A DNA stretch of 64,000 nucleotides from Haloterrigena sp. KLK7. Its GTDB lineage: Archaea > Halobacteriota > Halobacteria > Halobacteriales > Natrialbaceae. Made by a program: the position numbers and the translations under genes. The notes below the pieces were generated by a model. That model saw only the letters and a list, made by a program, of their open reading frames with translations, made no database searches and had not been told where the DNA came from. The stretch's first letter is position 1. Each line of letters begins with the position of its first letter. Shown piece by piece: positions 57,972-64,000 of the stretch. The stretch covers positions 2,542,001 through 2,606,000 of the forward strand of contig NZ_CP149787.1 in the NCBI RefSeq assembly GCF_037914945.1. The letters run 5' to 3'.

Positions 57972-58676
57972 CTACACCAGCGCCGAGAGCGCGAGGGCGA
58001 CGGCGACGCCGAAGACGGGGTAGTCCAGCCGCGAGAGCGACAGCGCGGGCAGCGTCGGATTCCAGGCGAAACACCGCGCCTGCATGGCGAGCGCGAGGCG
58101 ATCGGCCCGGTCGAACGCCCGCGAGAGACCGAGCAGTCCCAGCGTGCTCGCCCGCTCGGTCGCGCTGCGCTCGTCGCCCAGCCGCGCCGCCATCGCGTCG
58201 CGGATCGTCCGCAGGTCCGCCTGCAACACCGGGAGAAAGCGGAAGACGAGCGCGACGCCGACGCCGAGCAGCTGGCCGGGCTTCCCGGGGATCGTCCGCT
58301 GGATCGCGGCTCGAGAGTCCCGGACCGTCGTCGAGCGGACGTACGCCGCGCTGACGAGCAAGACGAGCAGGACGCGGTAGCTCGCCCGCGCGGAGGCGAG
58401 GCCGTCCGCGGGGTCGATCCAGGGCGGACCGAACGTGAGCGCCGCGAGCACCGGCGCGAGCGCGAGAAAGCCCAGTGCAAAGCGATAGGCGGAGAGCGTC
58501 TCGAGCAGCGGGACTCGAGCGGCGAGCAGGATCGCCGCGGTGACGGCGGTGAGCGCGACCAGCGCCCGTGGGCTCGTGTGGGCCAGCGCGGTCGCGGCGA
58601 ACCCGAACTGGACGGCCAGCTTCGAGCGGGGATCGAGCCGGTGGGCGAGCGTGTCGTCGGGATCGTAGCTGAGCAT
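57972..58676 (-). CDS. bioN: ECF transporter transmembrane component (EcfT/BioN)
   Basis: This 234-residue membrane protein couples the ATPase to BioY for biotin import. It has five or six hydrophobic helices. The EcfT signature includes AMAARLGDERSATER (with the ARG-type motif as AMQARCFAWNP later). Its gene follows ecfA and bioY on the same strand. The cobalt variant CbiQ is excluded by the bioY linkage. Confidence 0.85.
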   Translation of the reverse strand: MLSYDPDDTLAHRLDPRSKLAVQFGFAATALAHTSPRALVALTAVTAAILLAARVPLLETLSAYRFALGFLALAPVLAALTFGPPWIDPADGLASARASYRVLLVLLVSAAYVRSTTVRDSRAAIQRTIPGKPGQLLGVGVALVFRFLPVLQADLRTIRDAMAARLGDERSATERASTLGLLGLSRAFDRADRLALAMQARCFAWNPTLPALSLSRLDYPVFGVAVALALSALV

Positions 58677-58680
58677 CGTC

Positions 58681-58775
58681 GGTAGCGGTGGCGGTTGCGA
58701 TGGCGGTGACGGCGACGGCGATCGTCGTCGATAGCGGTAGCAGTGGCAGTGGCGGTGATCGTCGCTCTGCGGGCG
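58681..58775. repeat. Low-complexity GGYGGT-rich spacer between ecfA and ecfT
   Basis: The 100-nt gap between the two genes consists of GGTGGCGG-, GGCGAC- and GGCAGTGG-like units, a simple-sequence stretch on the plus strand. No ORF is claimed. Confidence 0.4.
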
Positions 58776-58776
58776 G

Positions 58777-59481
58777 TCAGACGTCCGGCACTCGAACCTC
58801 GAGGGCCGACAGCGCCTCGAGCGCGCGGTCGGGCGCGTCGTCGACGGCGACCGCGCCGTCCCGCATGGCGACGATGCGGTCGGCCGGGTCGAGCACGTCC
58901 CGGAGGTCGTGAGTCGCGAGCAGGATTCCGGTCCCTTCCCCGGACAGCGCCTCGAGTCGCGAGAGGACCGATCGTCGAGCGGGATCGTCGAGCCCGGTGA
59001 ACGGTTCGTCCAGGACGAGATGGGTCGGTTCCATCGCGAGCGCGCCGGCGATGGCGACGCGGGACTGCTCGCCCCCCGAGAGCGCGTCGATCCGCTCGTC
59101 GCCGCGGCCGGTCATGTTCACGGCCTCGAGCGCGTCCGCCACGCGGCGGTCGATCTCGTCGCGCTCGAGGCCGAGGTTCTCCGGGCCGAAGGCGACGTCG
59201 GCGCCGATCGTCGCGGCGACGAACTGGTCGCGCGGGTGCTGGAAGACCATGCCGACGCGCGAGCGGGCGGCGACGAGGTCCTCGGTGACCGGTGTGCCGT
59301 CGACCAGCACCGCGCCCGAGTCGGGCGTCACCAGCCCGTTGCAGTGGCGCAGCAGGGTCGTCTTGCCGCTCCCGTTGGCGCCCGCGAGGACGACGAACTC
59401 GCCGTCGTCGATGGTCAGCGAGACGTCCTCGAGGACCGGGACCTCGTCGAAGGCGTAGGTGACGGACCGAAACTCGATCAT
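58777..59481 (-). CDS. bioM: ECF transporter ATP-binding protein (EcfA/BioM)
   Basis: This 234-residue ABC ATPase powers biotin uptake. It has Walker A GANGSGKTTLLRHC, Q loop VFQHPRDQF, signature LSGGEQSRVAIAGALA, Walker B HLVLDEPFTGLD and switch His in LATHDLRDV. A single ATPase gene suggests homodimers. It lies between bioY and ecfT. Confidence 0.9.
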   Translation of the reverse strand: MIEFRSVTYAFDEVPVLEDVSLTIDDGEFVVLAGANGSGKTTLLRHCNGLVTPDSGAVLVDGTPVTEDLVAARSRVGMVFQHPRDQFVAATIGADVAFGPENLGLERDEIDRRVADALEAVNMTGRGDERIDALSGGEQSRVAIAGALAMEPTHLVLDEPFTGLDDPARRSVLSRLEALSGEGTGILLATHDLRDVLDPADRIVAMRDGAVAVDDAPDRALEALSALEVRVPDV

Positions 59482-59521
59482 CGCGCCCTCGCTGACGGGG
59501 TCGACGGCGTCGCTCGAGCGA

Positions 59522-60109
59522 TCACGATCCGACCGGCTCGAGTCGCCCGCTCTTCACGATCGCGATCGCGGCGGCCATCTTGACCAGTTCGGCGGGGACG
59601 AACGAGAGCGCGTAGACGGTGATCGCCTCCCAGGGCTCGAGGGCCTGGAGCCAGGCCGCGTAGGCCGTCCCCATGGCGTAGATGAGGATCGTCCCGGCGA
59701 CGAGCGCGCCGACGACGATCGGCAGGGGGACGTCGGCGGGGTTCTGGAGGTCGGTGCCCCGGTGAACGACGGCGCCGATCAGCGCCGCCGCGAGCGGGTA
59801 CGACCAGAGGTAGCCCGCGGTGTTTCCGACGAGGGGGCCGAACCCAGCCTCCATCCCCGAGAAGATCGGGAGTCCGGCCGCACCGGCGGTCAGATAGCAG
59901 AGCATCGAGATCGCTCCCCAGACCGGCCCCAGCACGAGGCCGGCGAGGAAGACGAACAGCACTTGTAGCGTGATCGGCGCTGGCGAGAACGGGTACGGGA
60001 TCGTCACGAATATCGACGCCCCGACCAGCGCCGCCAGCACCGCCGCGCGAGCGAACTGGCGGACGACGTCCCCCTCGACGAGATCGACGGACTCTCGGTT
60101 CGTTGCCAT
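59522..60109 (-). CDS. bioY: Biotin transporter substrate-binding subunit BioY
   Basis: BioY binds biotin in the membrane. The 195-residue protein has six helices, with the conserved PYPFSPAPITLQVLFVFLAG, GLPIFSGMEAGFGPLVGNTA and GYLWSYPLAAALIG motifs. The start at 60109 (MATNRESVDL) follows a TATA-poor promoter that overlaps a BirA-type inverted repeat. It leads the three-gene transporter operon, so biotin probably represses it. Confidence 0.9.
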   Translation of the reverse strand: MATNRESVDLVEGDVVRQFARAAVLAALVGASIFVTIPYPFSPAPITLQVLFVFLAGLVLGPVWGAISMLCYLTAGAAGLPIFSGMEAGFGPLVGNTAGYLWSYPLAAALIGAVVHRGTDLQNPADVPLPIVVGALVAGTILIYAMGTAYAAWLQALEPWEAITVYALSFVPAELVKMAAAIAIVKSGRLEPVGS

Positions 60110-60122
60110 ACCACACCGATTC

Positions 60123-60154
60123 TCGTAAACCAAGTTCAACACTTCGGTTTCCGA
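60123..60154. promoter_or_regulatory. BirA-type biotin operator upstream of bioY
   Basis: TCGTAAACC-N14-GGTTTCCGA agrees with the known BirA operator TTGTAAACC-N(14-16)-GGTTTACAA at 8 of 9 and 7 of 9 positions. The halves are complementary at 8 of 9 positions. The site lies 14-45 nt upstream of the bioY ATG on the minus strand, at the core promoter. The BirA consensus is from bacteria; its use here is inference. Confidence 0.6.
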
Positions 60155-60429: not shown

Positions 60430-60615
60430 ATGTCATCCGTACGTAGGCGGTTCGGACCACGGCGCGATCGGGAACCGAGACGAAGCCAGCGATCGACTCG
60501 CGAACGGTGGGGACGCGACGGTCGCACGGACCGTTCGAACCGCGATCGCCGCTCGGACCGGTGGGAGCGCAATCGCCGCTCGAGGGGACGGGGCGGCGGG
60601 AGCGTCGAGCCATGA
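60430..60615 (+). CDS. Possible basic Arg-rich ORF overlapping the repeat protein
   Basis: This 61-residue ORF (MSSVRRRFGPRRDREPRRSQ onward) is about 40% Arg, unlike the acidic proteome. It has a TATA-spaced ATG and ends in an ATGA overlap with the large protein gene. It may be a translated leader or only a G/C-rich shadow; the latter is a serious possibility. Confidence 0.25.
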   Translation: MSSVRRRFGPRRDREPRRSQRSTRERWGRDGRTDRSNRDRRSDRWERNRRSRGRGGGSVEP

Positions 60616-63600
60616 ATCGGCGTCGAGGAGCGGCCGTTGCAGTGCTCGCCGTCGCCGCGCTGCTGGTCACGAGCGCGGTGGCGCTGCCGCTGCTCGGCGG
60701 CGGTGTCGTCCCGTTCGAGGGCAGCGAGAGCGCTCCCGGCGGGGGAGACGGCGAAACGACGGATATCGCCGCTGCAGACAGTGTAGCCGCCAGCCAAGAC
60801 GATGGCAGCGGAAGTACGGATTCCACCGCCGCGGACGCGGCGGATCGAGAACCCGTGCGTGCGAGCCAGTCGGCCGCGGACGGCGAGTTAGTGTCGTTCG
60901 ACGCTGCGACGGAATCGGCCACGACCGACGCGGAGGCGACCGCCGACGCTGACGCGAGCGCCTCGCTCGCACAGGAACAGACGACGGCCGTCGAGGCCGG
61001 CGTCGACGAGGGGATGGAACTGGCCCAGCAGCAGGGCGTCGAGGTGACCCAGGAACAGCGCGCGGCGGCCGTCGAGGCCGCCAGTCAGTCGGTCGCCCAG
61101 CACCAAGCGGCCGACGCCGAGCAGATTCAGGCCGCGACGGCCGGCGCGGTCCACGGCTCGCTGATCCAGTCCCAGGACGCCGAGATCGAACAGCTCCAGT
61201 CCGCGATCGGCGGCGCGACCGACGGCGCGCTCGCCCAGTCGCAGACGGTCTCGGCGAGCCAGATGCAGAGCGCGACGTGGGGGGCGACCCACGGCGCCCT
61301 CGCGCAGAAACAGCACGCCGACGTCGACCAGATTCAGGTCGCCACGCGCGGGGCCGCAGCGGGGGCGTGCCGGGAAGCGGGCGATAGCGACGTTCGGGAC
61401 CCCCCGAAGACCCAGGAGGCCGCGCAGGGGGCGGCCTACGGCGTCCTCGAGCAGTATCAGAAGATCACCGTCGAACAGCGCCAGCGGATCACGCTCGAGC
61501 ACGTCCAGCACGCGGCGGCCGGCGCGTCCGCGGGCGCACTCGAGGGGAGCACCGCGGCGGCCCTCGAGGGCGAACAGGGCCAGGAGATCACCGTCGAACA
61601 GCGCCAGCGCGTGAACATCAAGCAGGTGCAGAAGGCCGCCACGGGCGCCGCGAAGGGCGCGCTCGTCCAGCGTCAGGAGGTCACCGTCGAGCAGACCCAG
61701 GCCGCGGCCCGCGGGGCGGGCAGGGGTTCGCTGACGCAGCTCCAGACCGTCAGCGTCGAACAGGTCCAGCGGATCTCGATCAGCCAGATCCAGGAGGCCT
61801 CCTTCGGCGCGGCCAAGGGCTCGATTTACCGGAGCCAGTCGGCCACGGTCGAGCAGATTCAGGCGGCGGCCGACGGGGCCGCGGGCGGCGTGCTGGTTCA
61901 GCACCAGGAGATTTCGATCAGCCAGATCCAGTACGCCGCGGTCGGCGCGTCCCAGGGAGCGATCGAGTCGGCGGTCCAGTACCAGATCGCCGATATTCAG
62001 CAGATTCAGGCCGCCGCGTTCGGCGCCGGCGAGGGGTCGGTGCTCCAGCAGCAGGTCGTCGATATCACGCAGGTCCAGCGGCTGGCGTCCGGCGGTGCCA
62101 GCGGCGCGCTGAGCCAGTATCAGTCGGCGACCGTCGAGCAGATCCAGATCGCCGCCAGCGGCGCCACGCAGGAGACGGCCCGCGTCGTCCAGTACCAGCG
62201 GATCAGCGTCACGCAACTGCAGGTCCTGACCCAGGAGACCGCGTCCGACGCCACCGCGTACGCGGTCCAGCAGGAGATCGACGATATCACCGAAATCAGG
62301 CAGTACGTCGAGGACGCGGCCGAGGATCGCGCCGACGAGATCGACGAACTCGAGGGAACGGCGTCGATTACGTTCGCCGACCGGGAAGGCGACGGCGAGA
62401 CGGTCGCCGTCGACGAGGTCGACCTCTCGGAGGGCGGCTTTGTCGCGATCTACGCGGCCGACGCCGTCGCCGATCCGGGCGCCGTTCTCGGGACCTCGAG
62501 CGCCCTCGAGGCCGGGACCCACTCCGACGTCGAGATCGACCTCGAGGAGCCGATCGAGGAGGACCAGCCCCTCACCGCAGTGGTCCACCACGATACGAAC
62601 GACGACGGAACGTTCGAGTACGGCGATACCGACGGGGCGGAGGACGTCCCGTACGTCACCGACGCCGGCGTGCCGGTGCTCGATACGGCGTTCGTCTCGG
62701 TCGGCGACGAAGTACAGGGACCGCAGGAACCGGCCGAGCCGAACGCGACGCTCTCAGTGAGCGATCAGACCGGCGACGGCGAGACCCTGACCGTCGACGA
62801 AGCGAGCGCGACCGTCGACTACACCGTAACGGCGACGGCCAATGAGTCGACGGCCGAGAGCCAGTCCTTCGAGGCCAACGAGACGGTGACGGACCTCGAA
62901 CTCGACCTCGAGCCGCCGCTCGAGGCAAATGCGACGGTCGACGTGGCCGTCATCGACGAGAACGGGACACCTCTCGAGAACGAGACGGTCGAGTACGCGG
63001 TCGACGGGGCGGGCGACGATGTCGCCGACAACGCTGACGAGGCCGAGGGAATGCTCGCGGTCACGGACTACGAAATCGACGTCGGCGAGGGTAACGCCGG
63101 AGACGAATACGTCACGATACAGAATAACGGCGACATCGCGATCGATCTCTCCGGCTGGACCATGCAGGATCGCTTCGAAGACGGCGTCGTCGATTCGCTC
63201 GGCTGGGAGCCATTGACGTTCCCGGATGGCTTCGTCCTCGAGCCCGGTGAGGAAGTAACGATCGTAACAGGTCCAGGCAACGACACCGCTGATACGCTCT
63301 ACTGGGGCCACGAGTCGCCAGTCTGGAATACCTCCAGCGACGAGGTCATCGTTCTCGACGAAGACGAAGATGTCGCCCTGCAGGAACAGATCGAAGCCGA
63401 CCAGCCGAACGAATCGGCGGCCACGCTCAACGTGTCGGATCAGACGGGCGACGGCGAGACGCTCGTCGTCGACGAGGCGAACGCGACCGTCGACTACCGG
63501 GTCACCGCGACCGACGAGAACGGCACGCAACGCGGGGAGAGCGATCTCTTCGAGGCCAACGAGACCGCCGAACTCGAGTCGCTCGACCTCGAGCCGCCGC

Positions 63601-64000
63601 TCTCCGAGAACGCGACGCTCGAGGTCGCCGTCACTGACGAGAACGACACGGCACTGGCGAACGAATCCGTCGAGTACACGGTCGACGGCGATCCGGCGAC
63701 GTTCGAGGCGACGTTCCCCAGTTGTTCGCAGGCCGAGGTGACCGGTTCCTTCGAGGAGGGCGACACGATCATCGTCGGGACCGCGTTCTACGAGAGCGGC
63801 GGCTTCGGCAACTCGATGGGCGAGTACGCCGTCACCGTCGGCGAGGACGTCCCGGCGCCGTTCGAGGGGACGCTCACCTACGAGACCGGTGACGACTTCA
63901 CCGTCGCCGAGACGGCCGACGGCGCGACCGTCACGGTCCCCGAGGGCGATACGGGCGCCGTGATCACCGGCTTCGCGTCGCCCGACGCGACGCCGGGATC
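60612..64000 (+). CDS. Giant exported glutamine-repeat protein, 3' end beyond window
   Basis: The gene is open from ATG 60612 to the window end (over 1,129 codons, no stop). Residues 1-25 (MNRRRGAAVAVLAVAALLVT) form a Sec-like signal or anchor. A low-complexity acidic/Ala region follows (about 35-140). Then come about 16 glutamine-rich repeats (residues about 145-558). A DUF7282-like domain follows (about 582-698, ITFADREGDGETVAVDEV...HHDTNDDGTFEYGD). Two copies of a beta domain (VSDQTGDGETLTVDEA... and VSDQTGDGETLVVDEA..., about 708-801 and 931-1026) flank a lamin-tail-like domain (about 813-922, YVTIQNNGDIAIDLSGWTMQ). Likely a surface or adhesion protein; function unknown. Confidence 0.85.
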   Translation, partial: MNRRRGAAVAVLAVAALLVTSAVALPLLGGGVVPFEGSESAPGGGDGETTDIAAADSVAASQDDGSGSTDSTAADAADREPVRASQSAADGELVSFDAATESATTDAEATADADASASLAQEQTTAVEAGVDEGMELAQQQGVEVTQEQRAAAVEAASQSVAQHQAADAEQIQAATAGAVHGSLIQSQDAEIEQLQSAIGGATDGALAQSQTVSASQMQSATWGATHGALAQKQHADVDQIQVATRGAAAGACREAGDSDVRDPPKTQEAAQGAAYGVLEQYQKITVEQRQRITLEHVQHAAAGASAGALEGSTAAALEGEQGQEITVEQRQRVNIKQVQKAATGAAKGALVQRQEVTVEQTQAAARGAGRGSLTQLQTVSVEQVQRISISQIQEASFGAAKGSIYRSQSATVEQIQAAADGAAGGVLVQHQEISISQIQYAAVGASQGAIESAVQYQIADIQQIQAAAFGAGEGSVLQQQVVDITQVQRLASGGASGALSQYQSATVEQIQIAASGATQETARVVQYQRISVTQLQVLTQETASDATAYAVQQEIDDITEIRQYVEDAAEDRADEIDELEGTASITFADREGDGETVAVDEVDLSEGGFVAIYAADAVADPGAVLGTSSALEAGTHSDVEIDLEEPIEEDQPLTAVVHHDTNDDGTFEYGDTDGAEDVPYVTDAGVPVLDTAFVSVGDEVQGPQEPAEPNATLSVSDQTGDGETLTVDEASATVDYTVTATANESTAESQSFEANETVTDLELDLEPPLEANATVDVAVIDENGTPLENETVEYAVDGAGDDVADNADEAEGMLAVTDYEIDVGEGNAGDEYVTIQNNGDIAIDLSGWTMQDRFEDGVVDSLGWEPLTFPDGFVLEPGEEVTIVTGPGNDTADTLYWGHESPVWNTSSDEVIVLDEDEDVALQEQIEADQPNESAATLNVSDQTGDGETLVVDEANATVDYRVTATDENGTQRGESDLFEANETAELESLDLEPPLSENATLEVAVTDENDTALANESVEYTVDGDPATFEATFPSCSQAEVTGSFEEGDTIIVGTAFYESGGFGNSMGEYAVTVGEDVPAPFEGTLTYETGDDFTVAETADGATVTVPEGDTGAVITGFASPDATPG
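61044..62285 (+). repeat. About 16 tandem Gln-rich repeats, period 23 residues
   Basis: The typical unit, such as VEQIQAAADGAAGGVLVQHQ plus three residues, is 23 residues: x-x-Q-[IVL]-Q-x-A-x-x-G-A-x-x-G-A/S-L-x-Q-x-Q-x-x-x. Several copies have exactly 23 residues, while others carry 2-20-residue insertions. The spaced Gly/Ala positions resemble helix-packing motifs, and the Gln pairs repeat at fixed distances at the unit ends. DNA copies have diverged, so this is an old array. Confidence 0.8.

Follow-up and report, generated by a model that had tools for sequence, protein, structure and literature searches.

The window analysed here is a stretch of 64,000 nucleotides from Haloterrigena sp. 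KLK7. Towards its end a gene on the forward strand encodes a large protein with a tandem repeat array in its N-terminal half. The ATG at 60612 agrees with the start region of the orthologs. The initial annotation had seen only the part of the gene that lies in the window; the genome sequence yielded the full gene of 1,481 residues, whose frame continues for 1,059 bases after the last in-frame codon of the window (stop ending at 65057, window numbering). BioN-, BioM- and BioY-like genes at 57972-60142, which we take to be a biotin uptake cluster, are divergent from the array gene and adjoin it. The features of the locus are the following.

59522-60142, reverse strand: BioY-like biotin transporter component, the divergent neighbour (named from sequence knowledge)
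60612-63998, forward strand: part of the repeat protein gene inside the window, its frame uninterrupted up to the last codon (residues 1-1129 of 1,481)
60612-60686, forward strand: N-terminal signal-type hydrophobic segment MNRRRGAAVAVLAVAALLVTSAVAL (hydropathy; retained in orthologs)
60687-60947, forward strand: low-complexity acidic stretch, weakly conserved (29% median pairwise identity over residues 1-112)
60948-61043, forward strand: N-terminal array cap (AVEAGVDEGMELAQQQG...), conserved alongside the array in those relatives that were inspected
61044-62285, forward strand: repeat array, residues 145-558 (motif statistics, ortholog alignment)
61464-61487, forward strand: insert ITVEQRQR, residues 285-292 (ortholog alignment, unit analysis)
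61587-61610, forward strand: insert ITVEQRQR, residues 326-333 (ortholog alignment, unit analysis)
61749-61772, forward strand: insert VSVEQVQR, residues 380-387 (ortholog alignment, unit analysis)
62286-62360, forward strand: C-terminal array cap, ITEIRQYVEDAAEDRADEIDELEG region (alignment, AlphaFold2 model)
62361-62696, forward strand: DUF7282 domain (PF23951), residues 584-695 (Pfam, E 6.7e-35)
63072-63374, forward strand: Lamin Tail Domain (PF00932), residues 821-921 (Pfam)

Hydropathy peaks at 2.58 over residues 7-25, the sole transmembrane-like segment in the window protein. A signal segment as found in exported haloarchaeal surface proteins is predicted there, also in the orthologs, and export of the array protein is indicated by this N-terminus. 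A C-terminal anchor was not found by hydropathy in the window protein. The C-terminal part contains putative Ig-like stretches, for which Pfam gave a sub-threshold Big_1 match only, and the Lamin Tail Domain lies between them. Among the named aligned orthologs the Lamin Tail Domain region is covered by L059 only, a distribution that suggests patchy domain gain; a search of PHROGs gave a match over this region only. Net charge per 100 residues (medians over relatives) is about -3 for the array and about -25 for the C-terminal remainder. Such a near-neutral array of 400 residues is unusual in an otherwise strongly acidic halophile protein and bears on the extracellular structures of halophiles. 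Directly upstream of the ATG, at 60523-60582, lies a 27-base tandem repeat of 2.2 copies. A targeted search of the own genome revealed a single array locus and partial matches to the C-terminal modules: proteins L002-L005 align to the C-terminal part at 35-45% identity, three of them over DUF7282 and one over residues 927-1126.

The array consists of 15 clear units and one degenerate last unit of about 23 residues each, with the consensus QIQ-x-AA-x-GA-x-x-G-A-L-x-Q-x-Q-x-V-x-V-x. Units start with their first Q (or K/H) at residues 147, 171, 194, 217, 240, 266, 297, 338, 361, 392, 415, 438, 464, 487 and 510, the degenerate unit at 535. Most are spaced by 23 residues, some by 26 (+3) or 31 (+8) and a few by other distances. 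The +3 unit spans residues 438-463 and an irregular unit approximately residues 251-283; the three inserts of eight residues, which interrupt the period, duplicate the extended half of the unit only. Composition of the array is skewed (Q 17%, A 20%). Compared to 5,000 composition-preserving shuffles of the array residues, three motifs are far in excess: QxQxAxxG with 11 occurrences (0.4 in the shuffles on average, 4 at most), AxxGAxxG with 13 (0.25 on average, 3 at most) and QxQ with 30 (12 on average, 24 at most). The array is 28% identical to itself at a lag of 23 (z = 11.1); additional peaks stand at lags 72, 46, 54, 31 and 8. Tandem repeat finding at the DNA level missed the array, because its units are too diverged in DNA. 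Shuffle statistics, lag-23 peak and signal-type N-terminus uphold the initial annotation in its claim of a repeat array in an exported protein, and the array is real and conserved; it is probably an extracellular building element, not sequence noise. That the irregular unit (approximately 61363-61440) arose from a frameshift or a sequencing artefact was considered and rejected, since the pattern GAAAGA..EAG....PK.QEAAQGAAYG is kept in all aligned orthologs.

The initial annotation, made from the letters alone, knew of no named repeat family with this pattern, and this was borne out in Pfam, NCBIfam and the PDB sequences. The array alone had no match in Pfam or NCBIfam, nor in the PDB sequences by single sequence or by profile, and four full-length relatives had none in NCBIfam. 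A search of 46 aligned arrays against Pfam returned two matches only, one to TSP3 and one to a stray viral family, each in a single member. A hit to a described repeat family, which had been named as the result that would overturn the claim, was thus not found for the array in these libraries. Literature searches on 23-residue archaeal repeats, DUF7282 and Gln-rich haloarchaeal adhesins retrieved nothing on the array, and the literature searched holds no mention of DUF7282 or PF23951. By sequence comparison, the array is a widespread haloarchaeal repeat family without a name in the libraries searched.

Array relatives are present in 103 of 125 genomes of Natrialbaceae, in 122 of 392 genomes of the order sample and in 109 of 391 genomes of the class sample. 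Outside the order none was found: a phylum sample of 393 genomes contained 20 with a match, each of them from this order. A pattern scan of named genomes gave 45 loci, all haloarchaeal (Natrialbaceae, Halorussus, Haladaptatus, Halosimplex, Halorarius), with two patterns that were derived from Natrialbaceae and are no fair test of bacteria. The haloarchaeal search which the initial annotation had proposed found relatives across haloarchaea, and a haloarchaeal source of the array is supported. The closest named relative is that of Haloterrigena salina (91%). Several Natrialbaceae genomes (genera g2 and g10) are without the array gene, which is therefore dispensable there. A mobile or phage origin was rejected: no phage record matched in tblastn, no relative was found in viral contigs and two plasmid records only contain relatives, annotated as hypothetical protein.

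In other haloarchaea the array is joined to different modules. Halorussus relatives combine it with Thr-rich stalks and repeated DUF7282, the Halorarius relative with bacterial TSP3 repeats and CAP, and the Halosimplex relative with a right-handed beta helix. A C-terminal anchor is present in some relatives (e.g. L079, L082), and some of the Halorussus proteins end in a C-terminal hydrophobic segment followed by a basic end, as do haloarchaeal surface proteins. Natrialbaceae copies are mostly without a C-terminal anchor, and the protein could therefore be released. In flanking modules and acidic tails the array proteins resemble the haloarchaeal surface proteins built of Ig-like, CARDB and DUF7282 modules with Thr-rich stalks; unlike the known surface modules, the N-terminal array is undescribed in Pfam or NCBIfam. 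Judged from the attached modules, the signal-type N-terminus and, in some relatives, the Thr-rich stalks and C-terminal hydrophobic segment, a surface or extracellular role is favoured.

Within Natrialbaceae every column of the arrays can be aligned, also in the irregular unit (EAG....PK.QEAAQGAAYG) and in the inserts of eight residues, and both array length and unit order are fixed or nearly so. The gene occupies a single syntenic position there, next to bioY, bioM and bioN. Median pairwise identity is highest in the array (70%), followed by DUF7282 (61%) and the other conserved modules (53-56%), as compared to 29% for residues 1-112. Comparison of the window with Haloterrigena salina gave a Ka of 0.047 and a Ks of 0.169 (Ka/Ks approximately 0.28). 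At unit positions 4, 7, 11 and 15 the residues vary from unit to unit, but any given unit retains its own in 38 orthologs. Entropy at positions 4, 7 and 15 is about 1.1-1.5 bits within units versus 3.3-3.6 pooled, and at position 11 it is 0.9 versus 3.3. In distant relatives unit-by-unit matching is ambiguous past a few early units, and collinearity is therefore claimed for Natrialbaceae only. Repeat arrays of surface proteins often alter their copy number fast. Here unit order, inserts and length are kept across genera of Natrialbaceae, which points to a structure in which every unit matters.

Regarding the fold, conservation suggests that the unit has two halves, AAxGAxxG being helix-like and QxQxVxVxQxQ extended. 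Among 333 distinct canonical units, collected with a pattern that fixes Q16, Q18 and largely G8 and G12 and so partly imposes the entropies there, conservation varies with a helical period at positions 4-15 (P = 0.035) and with period two at positions 16-23 plus 1-4 (P = 0.002). An alignment-based profile with hand-placed units gave the same alternation. The best of five AlphaFold2 models of the window array (46 sequences) has one helix per unit (pLDDT 82.7, pTM 0.80); it is the only confident one, the other four reaching pLDDT 53, 47, 43 and 31. For the Haladaptatus array mean pLDDT was 49.1, helices with a pLDDT above 70 lying for the most part within the first 150 residues or so. Neither prediction contains strands. 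The proposal that the AxxGAxxG spacing suits close helix packing thus stands in part, conservation and the better AlphaFold2 model being helix-like but the AlphaFold2 prediction not reproducible. Disorder without repeating contacts, which the initial annotation had named as counting against an ordered array, is likewise not seen in the AlphaFold2 model of the window protein, with the same restriction on reproducibility. Foldseek revealed no clear structural relative (query-normalised TM of at most 0.27 among the rows listed). With VIA-align, no listed row was a convincing relative; the best, to the designed flat repeat 8ugc, has a Z of 11.2 and an rmsd of 8.7 and falls among the values which the tool gives for unrelated helical repeats.

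We propose, with a probability of about one half, that the array is a fixed-length extracellular solenoid in an exported haloarchaeal protein, serving as scaffold or spacer. The N-terminal half would form a solenoid of approximately 16 units, followed by DUF7282, Ig-like, Lamin Tail Domain and acidic tail modules. Each unit would contribute an Ala/Gly-rich helix (about Q1-L14) and an extended amphipathic stretch (Q16-x-Q18-x-V20-x-V22), and units would stack through their face of small residues and through Gln positions that line up; the latter could form ladders should the extended halves pair up as strands. Such a solenoid could position the C-terminal modules at a defined distance, on the cell surface or close to it; alternatively, solenoids could assemble laterally into an extracellular scaffold. 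In a halophile, the near-neutral array would fit a surface that packs against itself, against a partner or against sugar. From these data we infer the fold of the array protein, its location at the surface, its self-association and its role as a scaffold.

Among known systems, alpha-solenoids (TPR, HEAT, TAL effector, designed 8ugc) resemble the array in having tandem helical units that are predicted to stack side by side. The array differs from them in its single predicted helix per 23 residues versus two per approximately 34, and no significant sequence match was found; a two-helix unit of about 31-47 residues, as in the TPR, HEAT and TAL type, is not what its 23-residue unit provides. Leucine-rich repeats share a unit of 20-30 residues and possibly strand plus helix, but the array has no LxxLxLxxN pattern, and an LRR model is absent from the Pfam matches of the window array and of the 46 aligned arrays. 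The beta-helix of the ice nucleation protein (INP) of Pseudomonas borealis is a large exposed repeat array as well, for which an internal glutamine ladder has been proposed (PMC3196904); according to that 2011 paper no PDB entry then held a glutamine ladder. The array differs from INP in unit and sequence, strands are not predicted, and it is restricted to haloarchaea in the samples searched.

This comparison bears on a different fold for the array, a solenoid of alpha/beta or all-beta type. In such a solenoid the QxQxVxVxQxQ segments would be strands in a parallel stack with internal Gln ladders, and AAxGAxxG would form a turn or short helix. We consider this fold possible, if somewhat doubtful. 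Besides the ladder proposed for INP, the extended half speaks for it, as conserved positions alternate strictly with variable ones there. So do the linkers from Q18 to the next Q1, which measure only 5, 7, 13, 15 or 21 residues (491 distinct units), all odd and thereby keeping strand parity, while the hinge after G12 changes in length by +3, +2, +5 and -1; these insertion and linker counts are dominated by few shared events, so that the parity argument rests on few independent insertions. The hydrophobic position 2 and the Ala content, on the other hand, fit a helix from Q1, and neither AlphaFold2 prediction has a strand even though, for perfect repeats, a tendency of AlphaFold2 to err towards beta-solenoids is reported (PMC11795689). 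Because the reported bias runs towards beta, it does not explain the helical answer. A rather improbable further reading is that the array represents a haloarchaeal class of solenoid in which the 23-residue unit combines helix and strand and the Gln residues form one continuous ladder. The unit-specific residues exposed on it would then make up an ordered, conserved recognition surface for an extracellular polymer.

The poor reproducibility of AlphaFold2 and the biased composition would also be expected of a flexible low-complexity spacer without repeating contacts. Unit-specific residues kept at fixed unit positions across orthologs, the low Ka/Ks and the fixed length and order within Natrialbaceae argue against such a spacer, and we regard it as quite improbable. 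Biotin capture for the adjacent bioYMN transporter is hardly credible: the array gene stands head to head with bioY, bioM and bioN in nearly all Natrialbaceae loci with contigs reaching there, but outside Natrialbaceae no BioY match lies near array genes, weak BioM-like ABC matches (approximately 30-38%) occur in three loci only, and the modules of the protein are structural, not binding-protein folds.

Apart from the solenoid proposed for the window protein, some other Natrialbaceae genomes hold second array proteins. Those in L102, L104 and L114 have acidic tails and an N-terminus that looks twin-arginine-like by eye, and mainly 26-residue units are used in L104 and L114. The distant relatives L077-L083 contain very regular units, several with N-x-T/S sequons at unit positions 21-23, where the array of these relatives may be N-glycosylated.
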